A stretch of DNA of 64,000 nt, from assembly GCF_000374165.1 (NCBI RefSeq), contig NZ_KB893728.1:124001-188000 (forward strand), in the 5' to 3' direction. The position numbers were made by a program, and so were the translations under genes. Position 1 is the first letter of the stretch. Each line of letters starts with the position of its first letter. Source of the stretch: Parafrankia elaeagni (GTDB taxonomy: Bacteria > Actinomycetota > Actinomycetes > Frankiales > Frankiaceae). This document shows, one piece after another, positions 43,926 through 64,000 of the stretch. The notes beneath the pieces were generated by a model. That model made no database searches. It was not told the DNA's origin and saw nothing but the letters and a program-made list of their open reading frames with translations.

Positions 43926-45152
43926 TCAGGGCATCGGCCGGGGCGGCTGGACCCGGCCGGTGACCGCGCCGAGGGAGACGGCCCCGCCGTGAACTCCGGT
44001 GGCCGTGGCGGTGATGCTGACGTGGTCGTCGTCCCGCAGGAAGGTGCGGACGGAACCGTCGGGCAGCTCCAGCGGTTCCCGGCCGCCCCAGGTCAGCTCG
44101 ATGAGCGACCCGCGCTGATGCTGCTCGGGGCCGGAGACCGTCCCGGACGCGAACAGGTCCCCGGTACGCAGCGAGGCCCCGTTGACGGTCAGGTGCGCCA
44201 GCTGCTGGGCCGGCGTCCAGTACATCAGCCCGAAGGGCGGGCGGCTTACCAGGTGCCCGTTGATCCGCACTTCCATCCGGATGTCGAGGCCCCACGGTGC
44301 CGTCGCGGCGTCGTCCAGGTAGGGGAGCAGCGCCACTTCGCGGGCAGGGGGCGGGACCCGGGCCGCCGCCAGCGCCGTGAGCGGCACGACCCAGGGCGAG
44401 ACCGAGGTCAGGAAGGACTTTCCCAGGAAGGGGCCGAGCGGCACGTACTCCCAGGACTGCAGGTCACGCGCGGACCAGTCGTTGACGAGGCACACTCCGA
44501 ACACGTGCTGGTCCAGCTCCTCCAGTGTTACCGGCCGGCCCAGCTCCGACGGTGTCCCGACCACGAACCCGATCTCCGCCTCGATGTCCAGCTGCTGCGA
44601 CGGCCCGAACGTGGGTGGGCCGTCCGCGGGTCCCCTGCGCTGGCCATGTGGGCGGGCCACCGGCGTGCCGGACACCACCACGGTTCCCGAGCGCCCGTGG
44701 TAGCCGAGGGGCAGGTGCAGCCAGTTGGGAGTCAGCGGCGCACCGCCGGGACGGAACAGGCGGCCGAGATTCTCCGCATGGTGCCGCGAGCTGTAGAAGT
44801 CGACGTAGTCGGCGATAGCGACCGGCAGGTGCAGGCGAGCCTCCTCCACCGGAACGAGGTGCGGCCCGACCAGGGAGCGGTGCCGTTCCTCGGTCAGCCA
44901 CCCGACCAGATCGGCGCGTAGCGCCTTCCACCGTCGTGGCCCCAGTGCCAGGAACGCGTTCAGCGACCCCGTGGCGTGGACGGGGTCGCCGGTGACACCG
45001 GCCAGGTCCAGCACCCGGTCACCGATCGCCACCCCCGTGCGGGGCCGGCTGTCCCACCGCGTGGAGAACACGCCGTAGGGCAGGTTCTCCAGACCGAACC
45101 CGTCGTCGGCGGGAACGTCGCCGCTCAGCCAGCTCGCGGCGGAGGCTGTCAT
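43926..45152 (-). CDS. Fumarylacetoacetase
   Basis: Hydrolase that splits fumarylacetoacetate into fumarate and acetoacetate, last step of tyrosine/homogentisate breakdown. 408 residues. Visible family features: FGLENLPYGVFST near the start, FYSSRHHAENLGRLFRP, PLGYHGRSGTVVVSGTPV, DIEAEIGFVVGTPSELG, and NDWSARDLQSWEYVPLGPFL with its metal-binding acids. The ATG at 45152 overlaps the stop of the preceding small gene by four bases. It is the last gene of the leftward hppD-hmgA-(145 aa)-fah operon. Confidence 0.94.
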   Translation of the reverse strand: MTASAASWLSGDVPADDGFGLENLPYGVFSTRWDSRPRTGVAIGDRVLDLAGVTGDPVHATGSLNAFLALGPRRWKALRADLVGWLTEERHRSLVGPHLVPVEEARLHLPVAIADYVDFYSSRHHAENLGRLFRPGGAPLTPNWLHLPLGYHGRSGTVVVSGTPVARPHGQRRGPADGPPTFGPSQQLDIEAEIGFVVGTPSELGRPVTLEELDQHVFGVCLVNDWSARDLQSWEYVPLGPFLGKSFLTSVSPWVVPLTALAAARVPPPAREVALLPYLDDAATAPWGLDIRMEVRINGHLVSRPPFGLMYWTPAQQLAHLTVNGASLRTGDLFASGTVSGPEQHQRGSLIELTWGGREPLELPDGSVRTFLRDDDHVSITATATGVHGGAVSLGAVTGRVQPPRPMP

Positions 45153-45586
45153 ACCGCGCCGTCCGCGCCGCTCGCGCGCAGCAGCCCGAGGGCGACGAGG
45201 TCACCGGCCGGTTCGGCGATGCCGCAGGTGCCGAAGGAGGTGAACAGCGCCCGGGCCCGGTCGGCGTCGGCAGCGGACCACTGTGCCATGACCGCGGGCA
45301 GCTCGCCCGCGGGCGTCGTCACCACGAGCGCCACCGGATCCGGGGACTCCCGCGGCCCCGCCCGCCCCAGCGCCTCGACCAGTTCGCCGAGGCGGGCCGC
45401 CGGCACGACGAACCTGGCCACCATCGTCCGCAGGCCCGCGGGGCGGAACCGGTACGCGGCGAGCGCCGCGTCCATGGGTGCGTTGCCCGGTGGGAACAGG
45501 GCGGCATCGTCGAACAGGCCGGCCAACAGCCGGCTGACGGTGCTGCCGCTCGGGGCGCCGGCCAGGCCGGTGCGCGGATTCGTCAT
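45149..45586 (-). CDS. Hypothetical protein, probably shortened
   Basis: A 145-residue protein between homogentisate dioxygenase and fumarylacetoacetase, overlapping both by four bases. It starts with LLAGLFDDAALFPPGNAPMD and ends with SFGTCGIAEPAGDLVALGLL. From memory, actinobacterial proteins with both of these ends are about 300 residues long. Here the two ends are joined by only about 80 residues, which suggests an in-frame internal deletion. Function unknown; conservation next to homogentisate genes would imply an accessory role. Translation of the downstream gene may depend on it through coupling. Confidence 0.65.
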   Translation of the reverse strand: MTNPRTGLAGAPSGSTVSRLLAGLFDDAALFPPGNAPMDAALAAYRFRPAGLRTMVARFVVPAARLGELVEALGRAGPRESPDPVALVVTTPAGELPAVMAQWSAADADRARALFTSFGTCGIAEPAGDLVALGLLRASGADGAV

Positions 45587-46785
45587 GTGTCCGTCCCAGG
45601 GCGGGACCAGGACCAGGCGTAGTCCCCGTCGTCGGCGGCCAGCGCGCCCTCACCCAGGTCGAGCGGGTGGAAGGTGTCGACCATGACCGCGAGCTCGTCG
45701 ACATGCTCGACGCCGAGAGAACGCTCGACCGCCCCGGGCGCGGGGCCGTGGGAATGCCCGCCGGGATGCAGCGAGACCGAGCCCCGGCCGATGCCCGATC
45801 CCCGGCGGGCCTCGTAGTTCCCGTCGACGTAGAACATCACCTCGTCCGAGTCGACGTTGGAGTGGTAGTACGGCACGGGGACCGCCCGCGGGTGGTAGTC
45901 GACCTTGCGGGGGACGAAGTTGCACACCACGAAGTTCCGGCCTTCGAACACCTGGTGCGTCGGCGGGGGCTGGTGCACCCGCCCGGTGATCGGCTCGAAG
46001 TCGGCGACGTTGAAGGCGTACGGGTACAGGCATCCGGCCCAGCCGACGACGTCGAAGGGATGCTGGGGGAACACGTGCACCGTTCCCGCCAGGCCGTCCC
46101 GGCCCAGGCGGTGCCTGACGTGGACCTCGACATCCGTACCCTGCACCAGCATCGGTTCGGCCGGCGCCCGCAGGTCACGCTCGCAGTACGGCGCGTGCTC
46201 CAGGAACTGCCCGTACCGCGACAGATAGCGGCTCGGCGCCGCGATGTGGCCGCTCGCCTCGAGCGAGTAGAGGCGCAGCGGATCTCCCCCGGTGGGCACC
46301 CACCGGTGGATGACGGCCCGGGGGAGCACTACGTAGTCTCCGGGCCCGACGTCCAGCGCGCCGAACGACGTCTCGACCGTCGCGCCGCCGCCCTCGACGA
46401 AGACGCACTCGTCCCCGACCGCGTTGCGGTAGTACGGCGACGCCACGGAGGCCACCACGTAGGAGATCCGGACGTCGCCGTTCCCCAGCAGCAGCCGCCG
46501 CCCGGTGACCGCGTCGGCGGCCTTGTGCTCCTGGCCCGGAAAGAGCTCCGGCAGCCGCAGGTGGCGGGGCCGCAGCGGCATGTTCGCGACCAGTGTCTGG
46601 TCCGGCAGCTCCCACACCCGCGAGCCGACGATCGCCGAGGGAACGAACCGGTGGTAGAGCAGCGAGGAGTCGGACGAGAATCCCTCCGCGCCGACGAGCT
46701 CCTCGCGGTACAGGCCGCCATCGGGCCGCCGGAACTGCGTGTGACGTTTCGGCGGGACGTCGCCCACCTGCCGGTAATAGGCCAT
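45583..46785 (-). CDS. hmgA: Homogentisate 1,2-dioxygenase
   Basis: Non-haem iron dioxygenase that opens the ring of homogentisate to maleylacetoacetate. 400 residues. It begins MAYYRQVGDVPPKRHTQFR, typical of the actinobacterial form. Iron-site and family phrases are PPPTHQVFEGRNFVVCNFVP, YYHSNVDSDEVMFYVDGNYE and SLHPGGHSHGPAPGA. GGAGG stands close before the ATG. It lies 62 bp after HPPD and overlaps the next gene, forming the tyrosine-degradation operon. Confidence 0.95.
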   Translation of the reverse strand: MAYYRQVGDVPPKRHTQFRRPDGGLYREELVGAEGFSSDSSLLYHRFVPSAIVGSRVWELPDQTLVANMPLRPRHLRLPELFPGQEHKAADAVTGRRLLLGNGDVRISYVVASVASPYYRNAVGDECVFVEGGGATVETSFGALDVGPGDYVVLPRAVIHRWVPTGGDPLRLYSLEASGHIAAPSRYLSRYGQFLEHAPYCERDLRAPAEPMLVQGTDVEVHVRHRLGRDGLAGTVHVFPQHPFDVVGWAGCLYPYAFNVADFEPITGRVHQPPPTHQVFEGRNFVVCNFVPRKVDYHPRAVPVPYYHSNVDSDEVMFYVDGNYEARRGSGIGRGSVSLHPGGHSHGPAPGAVERSLGVEHVDELAVMVDTFHPLDLGEGALAADDGDYAWSWSRPGTDT

Positions 46786-52767: not shown

Positions 52768-53790
52768 TCAACGGCGACGAAGGGCCGGCTTGCTGAGGAC
52801 GGGCGGCGTGTACCCGGCGTCCTCCGGGTTGAGGTTCACCCCGGGCGGGACGATCTCGTCGATCCGGTCCAGTGTCGCGGTGTCCAGGACGACATCGGCG
52901 GCGGTGAGCTGGCTTTCCAGATGTTCCATCGTGCGCGGACCGATGATCGCGGAGGTGACCGCCGGGTGGCGCAGCACGAACGCCAGCGCCAGCTCGATCA
53001 GCGTGATGCCTGCCTCGGCGGCGAGGTCACCGAACGCGATCGCGGCCTCGACCTTGCGCTGGTTCGCCGGCAGGGACAGGTCGTAGCGGTTGGGGACCCG
53101 GGCCGTGCGGGTGCTGGTGACCTCGCCGCCGCCGCGCTTGTAACGCCCGGAGAGGAAGCCGCCGGCGAGCGGGCTCCACGGCAGCACGCCGAGTCCGTAC
53201 TTCTGCGCCACCGGCAGCAGATCGGCCTCGATGCCGCGGACGAGCAGCGAGTAGGGCGGCTGCTCGGTGACGAACCGTTCGCGGTGCCGCCGCTCGGCGA
53301 CCCACTGCGCCTCAACCACCTCGTGGGCCGGGAACGTCGAGCTGCCGAAGTAGCGGATCTTGCCGGCGCGGACGAGGTCGGTGAGAGCGCCGAGGGTCTC
53401 GTCGATGTCGGTCGACGGGTCGGGGCGGTGCACCTGGTAGAGGTCGATCCAGTCGGTGCCGAGGCGCCGCAGGCTGTTCTCCACCTCGGTGATGATCCAG
53501 CGGCGGGACAGGCCGCGCTGGTTGGTGTCCGGGCCCATGGGCATGAACAGCTTGGTCGCCAGCACGACGTCGTCACGTCGGCCGGCCAGGGCCTTCCCGA
53601 CGATCTGTTCGGACTCACCGGCGGAGTAGACGTCCGCCGTGTCGATGAAGTTGATTCCGGCGTCCAGCGCCCGGTGAATGATCTTTATCGAGTCGTCGTG
53701 GTCCTGGTTGCCCCAGTCCCCGAACATCATGGCGCCGAGGCAGAGCGGGGAGACCCGCACGCCGGTGCGGCCGAGTACGCGGTGATCCAT
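52768..53790 (-). CDS. Aldo/keto reductase, YajO/Tas-like
   Basis: NADPH-dependent reductase of the larger aldo/keto reductase group, 340 residues from the ATG at 53790; upstream in-frame residues lack family resemblance. MDHRVLGRTGVRVSPLCLGAM is the standard start. Catalytic residues: Asp and Tyr in DTADVYSAGESE, Lys in LATKLF and His in YQVHRPDP. Cofactor binding is near IIGPRTMEHLESQL. It diverges from the LuxE-LuxC pair with a strong palindrome between them. If co-regulated, it could reduce the fatty aldehyde that pair would make; this is inference. Confidence 0.92.
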   Translation of the reverse strand: MDHRVLGRTGVRVSPLCLGAMMFGDWGNQDHDDSIKIIHRALDAGINFIDTADVYSAGESEQIVGKALAGRRDDVVLATKLFMPMGPDTNQRGLSRRWIITEVENSLRRLGTDWIDLYQVHRPDPSTDIDETLGALTDLVRAGKIRYFGSSTFPAHEVVEAQWVAERRHRERFVTEQPPYSLLVRGIEADLLPVAQKYGLGVLPWSPLAGGFLSGRYKRGGGEVTSTRTARVPNRYDLSLPANQRKVEAAIAFGDLAAEAGITLIELALAFVLRHPAVTSAIIGPRTMEHLESQLTAADVVLDTATLDRIDEIVPPGVNLNPEDAGYTPPVLSKPALRRR

Positions 53791-53895
53791 GTGACCCCAG
53801 TATGGGGGTGCAGGGCAGGCGCGGACAGCCGTCGCACTCGCCGGGCCCGGCGCTTCCCCTCCTGCCGACATCCACGGGGACCGTGGGATCTCCTC

Positions 53896-53928
53896 TTGAC
53901 ATCTGAAACTATACTCGCGAGTCTAGTT
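53896..53928 (+). promoter_or_regulatory. TTGACA element followed by 22-bp palindrome
   Basis: TTGACA at 53896-53901 is a consensus -35 hexamer. Five bases on, 53907-53928 is a palindrome with arms AACTATACTCG and CGAGTCTAGTT, one mismatched pair. It overlaps the expected spacer and -10, as a repressor site of the TetR or MarR kind would. The palindrome ends 25 bp before the luxE-like GTG. A clear -10 at 17-18 bp spacing is not visible. No regulator gene is adjacent. Confidence 0.75.
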
Positions 53929-53953
53929 CTGTCGCGGTCGGAGGGAGATTCTG

Positions 53954-55303
53954 GTGAGTGGTGCAGTGGAGCGCCTGACAGGGCTCGTGCAGTCGGAGAA
54001 CCGTTTCGCCATTCCGTACGCGGAGCTGCGCGAGGCCCAGGTCGAGGCCATGAACGAGCGTTTCCAGGAACGCCGGGACCGCATCCGGCTGCTCGCCTTC
54101 CGCGCGAAGGAGGAGAAGGTCACCGAGATCCGGTCACTGGCCGACGCGGTACCGCTGCTCTTCCCGCACACCGCGTACAAGAGCTATCCCGAGAGCTTCC
54201 TCGCCGAGCAGAAGTGGGACCGGCTCGGGAAATGGCTCGGCACCGTCTCGGCCCATCCCCTCGCCCCGATCGACACGACCGGCATCACCGATATCGATGA
54301 CTGGGTCGCGCGTTACGAGGAGAACCGGCACTACATCTCGTGCTCGAGCGGCACGACCGGAAAGTCGGCGATGCTGATCGCCTCGGAGCGGGACATGGAC
54401 TGGTCCCGCCTCGACACGGTCGGAGTGTTCTCCTGGGGCTCCGGTGTCCAGCCCGCGCGGGACCGCCGGATGATGGGCCTGGCGCCGAGCGCCAGCGTGC
54501 CGAAGAACAACATCATCCGGGACGCGCAGGTCGCCGCCTTCGGCGACCCGCGGTTCGAGCCCTTCCGGCTGCCGATCCCACCGATCACCATCGGCGAGAT
54601 GACGAAGATGGTGGTGCTGCGCCGGGCGATGGCGGAGGGCACCGCCCGGCCCGAGGAGATCGCCGCCTTCGAGGCGACGTCGCGGGAACGGGCGGAGATC
54701 CTCGACAAGTCCTATGTCATCGCCGCGGAGACGCTCGTCGCGGCCCGCGGGGACAAGCTCATGCTCGCCGGCATGTGGAACGCGCTTCACCACATCGCCA
54801 GGCTGGTACGGGATCTCGGCTACAGCGGCGACGACTTCCACCCCGACAACTGCATCTACGTCGGCGGCGGCCTCAAGCGCGCGCAGCTCCCGCCGGACTA
54901 CCAGCAGTTCGTGCACGAGACCTTCAACATTCCCGCCACCCGCACCTTCCAGAACTACAGCATGCAGGAGCTCAACTCCGGCATGCCGCGCTGCCGGGAG
55001 GGCGGCCGCTACCACGTGCCGCCGTGGGTCGTCCCGTTCGTCCTCACCCGGGACGGCGACGCACTGCTTCCGGAGACCGGCGGCGAGGTCGAGGGCCGCG
55101 CCGCGTTCTTCGACCTGGCGCTCGACGGCCGCTGGGGCGGTGTGACCACCGGCGACCGGATCGCGCTCGACCACGGCCCGTGCTCCTGCGGGAACGCCGG
55201 GCCGAGCATCCGCGACAGCATCGTCCGCTACGCGGACCTGGAAGGCGACGACAAGATCGGCTGCGCCGGCACCGTCGACGCCTACGTGAGGGGCCTGTCA
55301 TGA
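53954..55303 (+). CDS. LuxE-like acyl-protein synthetase (ANL superfamily)
   Basis: 449-residue adenylate-forming protein resembling LuxE acyl-protein synthetase, which activates a fatty acid with ATP and passes it to a LuxC-type reductase. The ATP/AMP-binding loop is SCSSGTTGKSAM (about residues 132-143). C-terminal phrases FQNYSMQELNSGMPRC and TGDRIALDHGPCSCGNAGPSI are typical of the LuxE/PaaK-like branch. GTG start with GGAGG upstream. The stop overlaps the luxC-like ATG by four bases (ATGA), so the two are translationally coupled. No luxA or luxB luciferase genes are present, so bioluminescence is not implied. Confidence 0.8.
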   Translation: MSGAVERLTGLVQSENRFAIPYAELREAQVEAMNERFQERRDRIRLLAFRAKEEKVTEIRSLADAVPLLFPHTAYKSYPESFLAEQKWDRLGKWLGTVSAHPLAPIDTTGITDIDDWVARYEENRHYISCSSGTTGKSAMLIASERDMDWSRLDTVGVFSWGSGVQPARDRRMMGLAPSASVPKNNIIRDAQVAAFGDPRFEPFRLPIPPITIGEMTKMVVLRRAMAEGTARPEEIAAFEATSRERAEILDKSYVIAAETLVAARGDKLMLAGMWNALHHIARLVRDLGYSGDDFHPDNCIYVGGGLKRAQLPPDYQQFVHETFNIPATRTFQNYSMQELNSGMPRCREGGRYHVPPWVVPFVLTRDGDALLPETGGEVEGRAAFFDLALDGRWGGVTTGDRIALDHGPCSCGNAGPSIRDSIVRYADLEGDDKIGCAGTVDAYVRGLS

Positions 55304-56742
55304 CCACCACCGAAGCCGAACCGGCCGCCCCCGCCCCCGCTGCCGCCCACGCTCCCGAGCAGGACGTCATCCGGGTCGACCACTTCATCCGCGGGCGGCT
55401 TGTGCGCGGTGGGGCGGTGCACTACCGGTCCCGTGACCTCGGCGTCGAGTTCGCCACCCCCGAGATCTCGCTGGACGCGCTGGTCACCCCGCGCTCGGAG
55501 CTGCCTCCGCTGCTGGACGTCAGCACCGAGGAGATCATCGACTTCCTCGCCGCCTGCGGTGAGCGCCTGGTCCTGGAGGACAACGTCCACCTGCAGGAGG
55601 CGGCCGAGCGCATCATCGCGACGAACCCGCTGCCGCGGCGGGTGGTGGAGAACCTGTTCCGCGTCGCCCGGCACCGGCTGACGAAGCGGGCGCTGTGGGG
55701 CAGCATCGAGACCAACTTCGCCGACCCGGCGGCGCTCGACGGCTGGGTCGACCGGGTCGACTTCCACGGCAACCACGGCGCGCTGCGCGCCTTCCCACCG
55801 CGGATGATCCACATGCTGGCGGGCAACTCGCCGACCGGCTGCATCTCCTCGATCGCCCAGGGTGCGCTGGTCAAGGCGGTCAACGTCTTCAAGATGCCGT
55901 CCAGCGACCCGTTCACCTGCGTCGCCATGCTGCGCACCATGGCCGAGGTCGACCCGGAGCACCCGGTCGTCCGCTCGATGTCGGCGGTCTACTGGCGCGG
56001 CGGCGACGAGCGCATCGAACGCACCCTCTACCGCCCGCAGTACTTCGACCGGATCGTGGCCTGGGGCGGCGGCGACGCGATCACCAACGTCATCCGCTAC
56101 CTGGGCCCGGGCCTGCAGCTCGTCTCGTTCGACCCGAAGACGTCCATCTCGATGGTGGGGCCCGAGGCCTTCACCTCCGACACGGTGATCGGCGAGGTCG
56201 CCGAGGCCGCCGCCGTCGACGTCTCCGTGTTCAACCAGGAGGCCTGCCTGGCCAGCCGTTTCATCTTCGCCGAGGGCGAGCGGGACGGTATCGAGAAGTT
56301 CTGCGCGGCCCTGCAGGAACGCCTCGGCGTCGACCGGGAGATCGCCTCGGCCGTGGCGCTGCCGCTGCCCGTCGACACCCGCGACGAGATCCAGATGCTG
56401 CGGGTCATGGACGACGACTGCAAGGTCTGGGGGGCGCCCGACGGCCGCGGCCTGGTCATCCTGACCTCCGAGCCGGTCGACTTCCACCCCAGCAACAAGA
56501 CGGCGAACGTCGTGCACGTCGACTCGCTCGACGACGCCGTCCGTCACGTCAACGTCGCGACGCAGACGATCGGCATGTACCCGCCGGCGCGCAAGCGGGC
56601 GATGCGCGACCGCCTCGCCAGCGCCGGCGCGCAGCGGGTCGTGCGCCTCGGCGGTGCGGCGAAGCACGTCGAGGGCGGCCCGCACGACGCGATGTTCCCG
56701 CTCCAGCGCTTCGTCCACTGGATGTCCGACGAGGACGCCTGA
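55300..56742 (+). CDS. LuxC-like acyl-CoA/acyl reductase
   Basis: 480-residue reductase of the LuxC family, which converts an acyl-enzyme intermediate to aldehyde with NADPH. An Ala/Pro-rich start (residues 5-20) is followed by the family body. MLAGNSPTGCISSIAQGALVK is in the dinucleotide-binding region. The acyl-accepting Cys is probably in VFNQEACLASRFIF (about residue 317). MPSSDPFTC and the C-terminal MFPLQRFVHWMSDED are also characteristic. Coupled to the LuxE-like gene. The pair resembles a stand-alone fatty acid reductase without luciferase. Confidence 0.85.
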   Translation: MTTTEAEPAAPAPAAAHAPEQDVIRVDHFIRGRLVRGGAVHYRSRDLGVEFATPEISLDALVTPRSELPPLLDVSTEEIIDFLAACGERLVLEDNVHLQEAAERIIATNPLPRRVVENLFRVARHRLTKRALWGSIETNFADPAALDGWVDRVDFHGNHGALRAFPPRMIHMLAGNSPTGCISSIAQGALVKAVNVFKMPSSDPFTCVAMLRTMAEVDPEHPVVRSMSAVYWRGGDERIERTLYRPQYFDRIVAWGGGDAITNVIRYLGPGLQLVSFDPKTSISMVGPEAFTSDTVIGEVAEAAAVDVSVFNQEACLASRFIFAEGERDGIEKFCAALQERLGVDREIASAVALPLPVDTRDEIQMLRVMDDDCKVWGAPDGRGLVILTSEPVDFHPSNKTANVVHVDSLDDAVRHVNVATQTIGMYPPARKRAMRDRLASAGAQRVVRLGGAAKHVEGGPHDAMFPLQRFVHWMSDEDA

Positions 56743-61520: not shown

Positions 61521-63232
61521 CCCGTCCCGGTCGTCCCACGGCGCCGGATGCGCAGCCAGCAGTAGCCGTAGCCGGCCAGGTCGAGGTCGACGGCGCCGCC
61601 GTCACCGGCAGTCAGATCGCCGCCGGACCCGCCGGACCCGTGGGAGCCGCGGAAGCCGCCGGACCCGGCCAGCTGCGTCAACCGGTCGCCGGACTCGACG
61701 CCGGCGAGCGCGAGGCGCGTGGCGACGGGTTCCCGACCGAGGTTGTGCACCGTCACGACGGTCTGGCCGTCCAGATCGCTGCGGTGGACGAACAGGGCGG
61801 GGGCGCCGGGGCAGTCGAGCACGGCGCCGTCGCCCCAGGCGAGTTCCGGGCAGCGCCGGTAGACGCGGATCATCGCGGTGAACCAGGACAGCAGCGAATC
61901 GGGATCGTCCTGCTGGGCCGCCACGTTGACCTTCGCCGGGGCGAAGTCGCCCTCGACGACCGGGCCGACGAGGTGGTCGGGCTCGACAGCGGAGAAGCCG
62001 CCGTTCGGGCCGTCCGTCCACTGCATCGGCGTGCGCACGGCGAGACGGCCCTCGGCAGCCAGGTTCTCGCCCATCCCGATCTCCTCGCCGTAGAAGAGGG
62101 TCGGGGTGCCGGGCAGCGCGAACAGCAGACTGTAGACGAGGCGCAGGCGCGCCGGGTCCCCGTCGAGCATCGGGGGCAGCCGCCGGCGCAGCCCGCGGTC
62201 GTACAGCTGCATCGACGGGTCGGGGCCGAACGCGGCGAAGACCTCCCCGCGCTCGTCGTCGCTCAGTTTGTCGAGCGTCAGCTCGTCGTGGTTGCGGACG
62301 AAGGTCGCCCAGTGCCCGTCCTTCGGTGCGGCCGGCCGCTCCCGCAGCGTGGTGGCGAGCACGGAGGCGTCCTCCCGGGCCATCGCCAGATAGAGCTGCT
62401 GCATACCCGGGAAGTCGAAGCACATTGTCAGCTCGTCGCCGTCCTCGTCGCCGAAGAACGTGCGAAGCTCCGGGTAGGGAAGGTTCACCTCGCCGAGCAG
62501 GATCGCCTCGCCGCTGCGACGGGACAGAAAAGCCCGCAGGTCACGCAGGAAGTCGTGGGGGTTCGGCAGGTCCTCGGCGTCCAGCGCGCCGGCGGTCTCC
62601 AGCAGGAACGGAACCGCGTCGACCCGGAAACCGGAGACGCCGAGTTCCAGCCAGAAACCGAGGACCCGGGCGATCTCGTCGCGCACGTCGGGACTGGTGA
62701 CGTCGAGGTCGGGCTGGTGCTTGTAGAACCGGTGTAGATAGTACTGGCCGGCTTCCTCGTCGTACTGCCAGACGCTGTCCTCCTTGTCCGGGAACACCAC
62801 GTCGGACGGGCCGTCCTCCGGTGGCTCGTCCCGCCACACGTAGAAGTCGCGATAGGGAGAATCCCGGCTGGAACGCGCGGAACGGAACCAGGGGTGCTGG
62901 TCGGAGGTGTGGTTGACGACGAGATCGATGATCACCCGGATACCGCGGTCGCGGGCGAGCCGCAGGAACTCGACCAGGTCGCCGTGGGTGCCCAGACGCG
63001 GGTCGACGCCGTAGAAGTCGGTGATGTCGTAGCCGTCGTCGCGGTCGGGGGATGGGTAGAACGGCATCAGCCACAGGCACGTGACGCCAAGTTCGTGCAG
63101 GTGGTCGAGCCGTTGGGACAACCCGCGGAAGTCGCCGCAGCCGTCGCCGTCGGAGTCGGAGAAGGTCTCGACGTCCAGGCAGTAGACGACTGCGGTCTTC
63201 CACCAGAGGTCACCCGTCCTGGTCAGCCTCAT
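61517..63232 (-). CDS. GH13 alpha-amylase family protein, trehalose-synthase-like
   Basis: Glycoside hydrolase family 13 enzyme, 571 residues, acting on alpha-glucans or trehalose/maltose. It begins WWKTAVVYCLDVETFSDSDG, like trehalose synthases. GH13 regions: DLVVNHTS (region I), GFRVDAVPF (region II, nucleophile Asp), LLGEVN (region III, acid Glu) and FVRNHDE (region IV). The C-terminal beta domain is short and contains a Gly/Ser-rich insert (GGFRGSHGSGGSGGD). The start overlaps the luciferase-like gene stop by four bases, so the two are coupled. Confidence 0.93.
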   Translation of the reverse strand: MRLTRTGDLWWKTAVVYCLDVETFSDSDGDGCGDFRGLSQRLDHLHELGVTCLWLMPFYPSPDRDDGYDITDFYGVDPRLGTHGDLVEFLRLARDRGIRVIIDLVVNHTSDQHPWFRSARSSRDSPYRDFYVWRDEPPEDGPSDVVFPDKEDSVWQYDEEAGQYYLHRFYKHQPDLDVTSPDVRDEIARVLGFWLELGVSGFRVDAVPFLLETAGALDAEDLPNPHDFLRDLRAFLSRRSGEAILLGEVNLPYPELRTFFGDEDGDELTMCFDFPGMQQLYLAMAREDASVLATTLRERPAAPKDGHWATFVRNHDELTLDKLSDDERGEVFAAFGPDPSMQLYDRGLRRRLPPMLDGDPARLRLVYSLLFALPGTPTLFYGEEIGMGENLAAEGRLAVRTPMQWTDGPNGGFSAVEPDHLVGPVVEGDFAPAKVNVAAQQDDPDSLLSWFTAMIRVYRRCPELAWGDGAVLDCPGAPALFVHRSDLDGQTVVTVHNLGREPVATRLALAGVESGDRLTQLAGSGGFRGSHGSGGSGGDLTAGDGGAVDLDLAGYGYCWLRIRRRGTTGTG

Positions 63233-64000
63233 GCCTGCGCCGCTCCCGCCCGGGCCGCGGTCGGCCGCTGTGCCGTCGGACGGGTCGCCGCGGTGCCGGA
63301 GCCGCCGGAGCCGCCGGAGGTGCCGGGGGTGCCAGGGATGTCGGTGAGCTGCGGCAGGACGGATCCGGCGAACACCTCGATGAACTCGTCCAGGTGCTGG
63401 CCGACGTGGTGCAGGAAGATCTCCTCGTAGCCGAGCTCGGTGTACCGCGTGAGCTGCTCGGCGTGCCAGCCCAGGTCGCTGGAGATGTTGACGGACTCGG
63501 CGACGACCTCCGGCGGGACGTGCGCGGACACCGCGTCGAACGTGTCGATGTGGTCGATGTCCCAGCAGGCCGGCGGCGCGAACACGTTCGAACGCCACTG
63601 GTCGTGGGCGATGCGCGTCGCCTCGTCGGCGTCAGGGGCGTAGCTGAGGTGAACCTGCAGGCGCAGCGGGCCGCGCCCGCCGGCGTCGCGGTAGGCGTCG
63701 GCGACCGCACGCAGCCGCTCCTCGGGCCCGTTGACGGTGATCAGGCCGTCCGCCCATTCCGCGCACCACGCCGCCGTCTCCGGGCTGACGGCCGCGCCGA
63801 CGAGCGCCGGCGGTTCGGCGGGCAGCGTCCACAGCCGGGCCCGGTCGACGGTGACGAGTCCGTGATGGGTGACCTCCTCGCCGGCGAACAGCGCACGCAG
63901 GACGTCGACGCACTCCCGCAGCCGCGCCGCCCGCACCGGCTTCGCGGGCCACGGATCGCCGGTGATGTGCTCGTTGCTGGCCTCTCCGGTGCCGAGCGCG
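63229..64000 (-). CDS. Luciferase-like monooxygenase family oxidoreductase, 5' end outside window
   Basis: Partial gene; the frame continues past the right edge. The visible part starts GTGEASNEHITGDPWPAKPV, close to the G-x-G-E-x-x-N-E-H motif of the F420/FMN-dependent luciferase-like family that includes F420-glucose-6-phosphate dehydrogenase. LWTLPAEPPALVGAAVSPET and WADGLITVN are also typical, as is LGYEEIFLHHVG near the end. About 257 residues are visible, with a Thr/Ala/Arg-rich tail after DIPGTPGT. Whether it uses F420 or FMN cannot be judged. It is coupled to the amylase gene. Confidence 0.88.
   Translation of the reverse strand, partial: ALGTGEASNEHITGDPWPAKPVRAARLRECVDVLRALFAGEEVTHHGLVTVDRARLWTLPAEPPALVGAAVSPETAAWCAEWADGLITVNGPEERLRAVADAYRDAGGRGPLRLQVHLSYAPDADEATRIAHDQWRSNVFAPPACWDIDHIDTFDAVSAHVPPEVVAESVNISSDLGWHAEQLTRYTELGYEEIFLHHVGQHLDEFIEVFAGSVLPQLTDIPGTPGTSGGSGGSGTAATRPTAQRPTAARAGAAQA

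Follow-up and report, generated by a model that had tools for sequence, protein, structure and literature searches.

A luciferase-free LuxE/LuxC-type gene pair of Parafrankia elaeagni as a probable two-subunit carboxylic acid reductase under predicted TetR control

What do genes of the bioluminescence type do where no luciferase genes adjoin them? The question is raised by a locus in a stretch of 64,000 nucleotides of the Parafrankia elaeagni genome (assembly GCF_000374165.1, contig NZ_KB893728.1, positions 124,001 to 188,000), which is called the window here and is numbered from its first letter. In this locus a LuxE-like and a LuxC-like gene follow one another on the forward strand, and an aldo/keto reductase (AKR) gene lies divergently upstream. 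An earlier note on this DNA had read the three genes as one system that reduces a fatty acid to an aldehyde and then to an alcohol. Our reading, to which we assign a probability of about 0.7, is that the pair would form a luciferase-free, two-subunit carboxylic acid reductase of the LuxE/LuxC type, controlled by a repressor that we call TetR2 and serving a catabolic step, and that the presence of the AKR gene would be incidental.

The LuxE-like gene occupies positions 53954 to 55303 of the plus strand (449 aa). It begins with GTG and is preceded by a Shine-Dalgarno sequence, GGAGGGAG, read at 53940-53947 of the same strand, with GGAGG at 53940-53944. The LuxC-like gene follows at 55300 to 56742 (plus strand, 480 aa) and both open reading frames (ORFs) overlap in the ATGA at 55300-55303. 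The coupled pair of a LuxE-like and a LuxC-like gene, as first proposed, was confirmed by the ORFs, by this overlap and by the match of the downstream product to PF05893 (188 bits, the Pfam cut-off being 21). Judged against Parafrankia colletiae, both genes look to be under purifying selection (dN/dS of 0.13 for luxE-like and 0.11 for luxC); a contig of P. colletiae Cc1.17 gave the closest match among named genomes, with 94% identity in LuxE. The host genome, of 7.6 Mb, contains a second luxE-luxC pair on contig C47 whose products are 70% (LuxE-like) and 59% (LuxC) identical to those of the window. The claim that luxAB is missing held for the surroundings of the pair, beside which no luxAB genes lie, the whole genome not having been searched for them; Pfam models run on 14 window proteins did find one ORF of the luciferase-like monooxygenase family, at 63229-63999, cut by the window edge and 6.5 kb from the pair.

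The LuxC-like protein aligned to Photorhabdus luminescens LuxC with an E value of 2.4e-42 in hhalign. Its catalytic residue, Cys316 in the sequence NQEAC, is invariant in an alignment of 19 rows, and 96 of 96 usable relatives carry it at this position; the predicted model of the protein has a pLDDT of 80.

Its partner is named LuxE-like, and regarded as a putative sister family rather than as a filed member of PF04443 (LuxE), because profile and PDB scores favour LuxE and the near-terminal cysteine aligns with that of LuxE, yet hhalign with the smaller alignment does not separate it from PaaK and the PF04443 model does not match it. In a PDB profile search with the family the best match was LuxE (7xc6_E, E 4.6e-6), with phenylacetate-CoA ligases at 0.026 and weaker, and the profile of the wider family scored LuxE at 26.0 bits versus 13.4 for PaaK of E. 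coli. Every row of an alignment of 21 relatives keeps the SSGT-G adenylation loop, the GD of the TGD/SGD motif and Cys437, the 13th residue from the end, and most rows keep CxCG; in a wider set the near-terminal cysteine is present in 108 of 108 relatives. In LuxE this cysteine is the acyl acceptor. MAFFT placed the corresponding residue of P. luminescens LuxE (370 aa, sequence taken from a plasmid record) in the column of Cys437. The AlphaFold model of the window protein (pLDDT 87) shows a PaaK-type fold, and VIA-align pairs its residues up to 444-449 with PaaK residues up to about 337-345 of 422-435, where the protein stops. The model thus predicts an ANL adenylating domain without the C-terminal domain, which LuxE also lacks, as its length of 370 aa indicates.

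A LuxE-type identity has several results against it. No Pfam or NCBIfam model matched the protein and PF04443 found no match in its own genome; among the 21 relatives, two reached E values of 1 or less with this model, the best being 0.0024. With the smaller alignment hhalign gave 1.1e-6 for PaaK and 1.7e-6 for LuxE, its global mode placed the near-terminal cysteine of P. luminescens LuxE about two residues off Cys437, and Foldseek put PaaK ligases on top. LuxE 7xc6 was not among the 50 matches listed by Foldseek or by VIA-align, which tells nothing either way, and a PDB search with the single sequence was uninformative. Grouping with CoA ligases of aromatic acids, an outcome that the earlier note had named as damaging to its proposal, did not clearly emerge from the profile and structure comparisons: the fold is PaaK-like, but the profile scores favour LuxE, the C-terminal domain is absent and the cysteine is of the LuxE type.

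By homology, the LuxE-like protein would adenylate a carboxylic acid with ATP and take the acyl group onto Cys437, from which it would pass to Cys316 of the LuxC-like protein and be reduced with NAD(P)H to the aldehyde. The pair has in common with LuxC and LuxE of P. luminescens (LuxE 7xc6) the division of an acid reductase between two proteins, the catalytic cysteine of LuxC, the truncated ANL domain and the near-terminal cysteine. It differs from the lux genes of that organism in having no adjoining luciferase genes, no LuxD in between, the order luxE-luxC, a LuxE-like protein below Pfam recognition, predicted TetR-type control and relatives with catabolic-looking neighbourhoods. PaaK-type phenylacetate-CoA ligases share the fold of nearly the whole window protein, the SSGTTGK loop and the CxCG motif, whereas the window protein lacks their C-terminal domain, carries the invariant near-terminal cysteine and is coupled to LuxC.

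Concerning control of the pair, TTGACA at 53896-53901 (plus strand) is the presumed -35 element of the luxE promoter and the 22-bp near-palindrome AACTATACTCGCGAGTCTAGTT at 53907-53928, which has no strand, is the predicted TetR2-type operator. Both had been recognized before as overlapping elements; they are real, but they do not overlap, as the palindrome, with one mismatched pair, leaves a gap of 5 bp behind TTGACA and then extends over the spacer and the presumed -10 element. The latter, GAGTCT at 53919-53924 (plus strand, 17-bp spacer), is a weak match that a consensus scan did not list. TTGACA is present in all four Parafrankia sequences (the window and loci L032, from P. colletiae, L033 and L034) and not in the related locus L076. 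Transcription would start from this promoter, and an operator that lies over the spacer and the -10 element is what a repressor would use. A near-palindrome of 22 bp is by itself not rare in the window, where five with at most one mismatched pair were found against a mean of 3.7 in 20 first-order resamples; the one at 53907-53928 has 13 A/T in 22 positions, against 0-5 in the remaining four, which are rich in G+C. It is perfect in L032, the nearest relative, lies upstream of luxE in the window, L032, L033 and L034, and recurs in a weaker form in L076. Two tandem copies are found between luxE and the TetR2 gene in L039-L043 and L050, whose LuxE is only about 40% identical, and a single site in L037 and L038, where TetR2 is adjacent as well. 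An operator matrix trained on 18 sites, including the window clade, whose scores are consequently not independent, gave 28.7 bits for L115 and a weak 22.7 bits for L076 outside the training set. Allowing at most one mismatch, 59 genomes contained 30 distinct sites (46 strand hits versus 15 for the reversed pattern), 21 of them directly upstream of luxE. Inducible control, as the earlier note supposed, appears likely since the palindrome is conserved and common to TetR-linked relatives; its proposal to look for the same palindrome and for a TetR gene whose orthologues neighbour the pair gave a positive result.

The TetR2 orthologue of this genome lies on a different contig (G000:C60:72360-73007), where a P450 gene immediately precedes it. 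TetR2 matched at 68% or more in 13 of the 59 genomes and at 47% or less in the rest, a cut that was set after the results were seen; the operator stands at luxE in 12 of these 13 and in none of the other 46. Conversely, all 12 genomes with the operator at luxE have TetR2, as does one of the remaining 47. A predicted operator and its putative cognate regulator are both present in the genome, and the shared sites and the co-occurrence suggest that the TetR2-type repressor from C60 most likely binds 53907-53928 and would be released by a compound of the pathway.

To follow the distribution of the pair, 84,980 species genomes were scanned by pattern. This yielded 338 relatives, and the 80 best of them serve as the loci compared here; these contain repeats, L075, L077, L085 and L088 being genomes G002, G001, G004 and G002 again. 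Genes in the loci were called with a purpose-written GC-frame script and the counts rest on tblastn. The best 80 come from Parafrankia, Nocardia, Pseudonocardia, Actinomadura, Streptomyces, many Novosphingobium, Sphingobium, Sphingomonas and others, with several metagenome bins, and the pair is present in Actinomycetota and in Pseudomonadota; at E values of 0.001 or less, LuxE-like matches occur in 20 of the 59 genomes, the own genome included. LuxC lies directly downstream in 69 of the 80 loci, a divergent gene for a second regulator, TetR1, within 450 bp in 64, and both in 57. Usable rows were obtained for LuxE in all 108 loci and for LuxC in 96 (at least 380 aa, no stops), and the tree uses these 96. 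This LuxE tree intermingles the phyla, with modest support at some deep forks, and the window clade, which is supported at 100/99 and consists of 7 rows with 5 distinct sequences, has no adjacent TetR1. Six loci of Sphingobium and Sphingomonas, one of them a Sphingobium plasmid typed as conjugative, encode a LuxC 75-78% identical to that of the window, closer than the second copy of the genome itself, which suggests that the pair was transferred between phyla. The TetR1-linked modules of Nocardia, Novosphingobium and Sphingobium have the same enzyme pair (LuxE 58-72% identical) with TetR1 adjacent and, in many, a TAATG-type promoter motif, whereas the window clade has the TetR2-type operator.

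No general further partner gene was found in the 80 loci: a short-chain dehydrogenase/reductase (SDR) resembling PRK06197 occurs in 45 (39 of the 61 that span at least 18 kb) and a stand-alone lipoyl domain near the pair in 23, mostly from sphingomonads, and neither was seen beside the window pair. One such lipoyl-domain protein, of 76 aa, is encoded in a plasmid locus (L067:20773-21003) with E1 alpha and beta genes nearby. Two LuxE-like genes stand in tandem in the sphingomonad loci L113, L116, L129 and L130, perhaps also in L106, and a DUF222 gene lies directly upstream of luxE in genome G005 (L033:8821-9933); G001 has a homologue in the corresponding position.

The genomic context suggests catabolism, since the strong operator sites away from luxE, nine in number, include two pairs (four sites, in G026 and G027) between a TauD dioxygenase gene and a P450-SDR gene pair; another of the nine adjoins a Rieske oxygenase gene. 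The close relative L067 lies among genes for a CaiB transferase, a thiolase, a KstD-like protein, an enoyl-CoA hydratase, a carboxymuconolactone decarboxylase-type protein and an MFS protein, and more distant relatives lie near P450, amidohydrolase, AMP-ligase or enoyl-CoA hydratase genes. The most likely use of the pair would be a step in the breakdown of a bulky terpenoid, steroid or aromatic acid, and such a substrate seems likelier than a fatty acid. Two more of the nine, the operator-like sites G025:C295:1977 and G033:C22:24288, lie in genomes without a LuxE-like match, and the contig in G025 has a weak TetR match.

Both the regulatory and the catabolic part of this reading have points that weigh against them. 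The association of operator and TetR2 (Fisher p 1.2e-11) overstates independence because the genomes concerned lie in two genera; in this genome the promoter of the TetR2 gene itself lacks an operator, and apart from 53907-53928 the genome contains no site with one mismatch or fewer. When two mismatches were allowed, the reversed control equalled or outnumbered the operator in most genomes, so the weaker sites carry no weight. The site pairs of G026 and G027 represent one syntenic locus, and the genes next to two of the nine sites, both in G029, suggest no such pathway. On a Pseudonocardia plasmid (L072) the LuxE-like and LuxC genes follow directly after a type I polyketide synthase gene, a P450 gene lies two genes further along, and this pair likely has a biosynthetic use; a wax ester synthase gene lies about 7 kb from a distant relative in Caballeronia (29% and 34% identical). 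The wider family may thus include biosynthetic uses.

Could the pair be a fatty acid reductase proper, which would make long-chain fatty aldehydes for waxes, lipid signals, membrane or spore lipids? LuxC and LuxE act on fatty acids, so homology would favour it, together with the Caballeronia neighbourhood. We consider it improbable, as the LuxC-like protein scores only 173 bits with NF052251, the equivalog model for long-chain LuxC (cut-off 750), and the neighbours of L067, those of the distant relatives and the TetR2 site pairs between TauD and P450 genes all point elsewhere. Acid-to-aldehyde chemistry, the one half of the original proposal, is the best reading of the LuxE and LuxC families, but the fatty substrate is unproven, and its suggested use as a wax precursor, spore lipid or lipid signal found no support. 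The next candidate is an aryl acid reductase, in which a PaaK-like protein would adenylate an aromatic acid and a reductase partner would yield the aldehyde. The PaaK-type fold speaks for it, as do structure-search matches that include ClxA, solved with 3-amino-4-hydroxybenzoic acid, and there is a precedent in GriC/GriD of grixazone formation in Streptomyces griseus: GriC forms the acyl-AMP and GriD, a separate reductase, reduces it to the aldehyde (PMC10179220). The window pair would share this division between an activating protein and a reductase, but the acid that GriC/GriD convert is aromatic and their role biosynthetic. With profile scores that favour LuxE over PaaK, a near-terminal cysteine and no C-terminal domain, features that are LuxE-like, we hold this alternative to be credible though unlikely. 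Since such two-gene acid reductases outside luminescence are already known in principle (PMC10179220), the pair in the window would be a variant of a known enzyme type.

A three-gene fatty alcohol system that includes the divergent AKR is very improbable. The AKR gene (52768 to 53790, minus strand, 340 aa, PF00248) more likely starts at 53790, as does its relative in L032, than at 53871. It was found in all ten genomes searched, the own one included, at 82-100% identity, yet it adjoins the pair only in this genome and in P. colletiae, which share the whole region; in the other eight it is on another contig or hundreds of kilobases to megabases away. As a core gene located away from the pair in those eight genomes, it was rejected as a partner. 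Its closest solved relative is the DON 3-epimerase 9wk1. In favour of the layout, AKRs of a different subfamily do stand beside the pair, downstream in L041, L043, L050 and L215 and divergently, 120 bp away, in L076; four of them that were compared are 59-81% identical to each other, but the window AKR is only 39-42% identical to them. An AKR partner is possible in those genomes, whereas the window AKR is best read as a bystander, and the search for the three-gene layout came out negative. As for the repressor, the operator might be bound by the paralogous TetR1 or by another TetR protein instead of TetR2 from C60. This genome also encodes TetR1 (L031), which accompanies the C47 copy of the pair, and it has 29 TetR-like matches in all. 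This seems rather unlikely to us: none of 69 TetR1-linked loci exceeds 10.3 bits with the operator matrix, 41 of them carry another motif, ATAATGA, and C60 TetR2 keeps the recognition region TTKASLYAR of L039-L043, from which TetR1 differs.

Returning to the LuxE/LuxC-type acid reductase, the points of interest are a LuxE-like family that has gone unrecognised and what appears to be a switch of operator. We tentatively propose, with more doubt than conviction, that this sister family of LuxE and its LuxC would form a TetR-controlled acid reductase of aerobic catabolism, that it would turn a recalcitrant carboxylate into an aldehyde so that breakdown continues, that it was apparently passed between Actinomycetota and Pseudomonadota, and that one Parafrankia copy might have left the control of its own TetR and come under that of another, not linked to it, by way of the latter's operator. 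No description of the pair in actinobacteria or sphingomonads was found among the listed titles and abstract openings of the open-access literature; PMC10653915 yielded no passage on acyl-CoA, fatty-acyl or LuxC, so under these terms it does not treat the pair of the Sphingobium plasmid. In the annotated plasmid records examined, the partner is labelled 'hypothetical protein' and the adjoining reductase is often tagged with bioluminescence. Recognising it as a subunit of the LuxE type would assign a function to a gene pair that is widespread, and would point to an unusual reductive step in catabolism. Compact two-gene acid reductases would also be an addition to the biocatalysis toolbox, and the operator switch offers a testable case of regulatory rewiring.

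Elsewhere in the window, fumarylacetoacetase and homogentisate dioxygenase-like genes lie at 43926-46785, about 7 kb upstream of the pair. An open frame of 7422 codons (3-24840), NRPS-like by eye only, is followed by an MbtH gene and then by a gene whose 754-aa product combines HPPD/glyoxalase-like and FMN-dehydrogenase domains.

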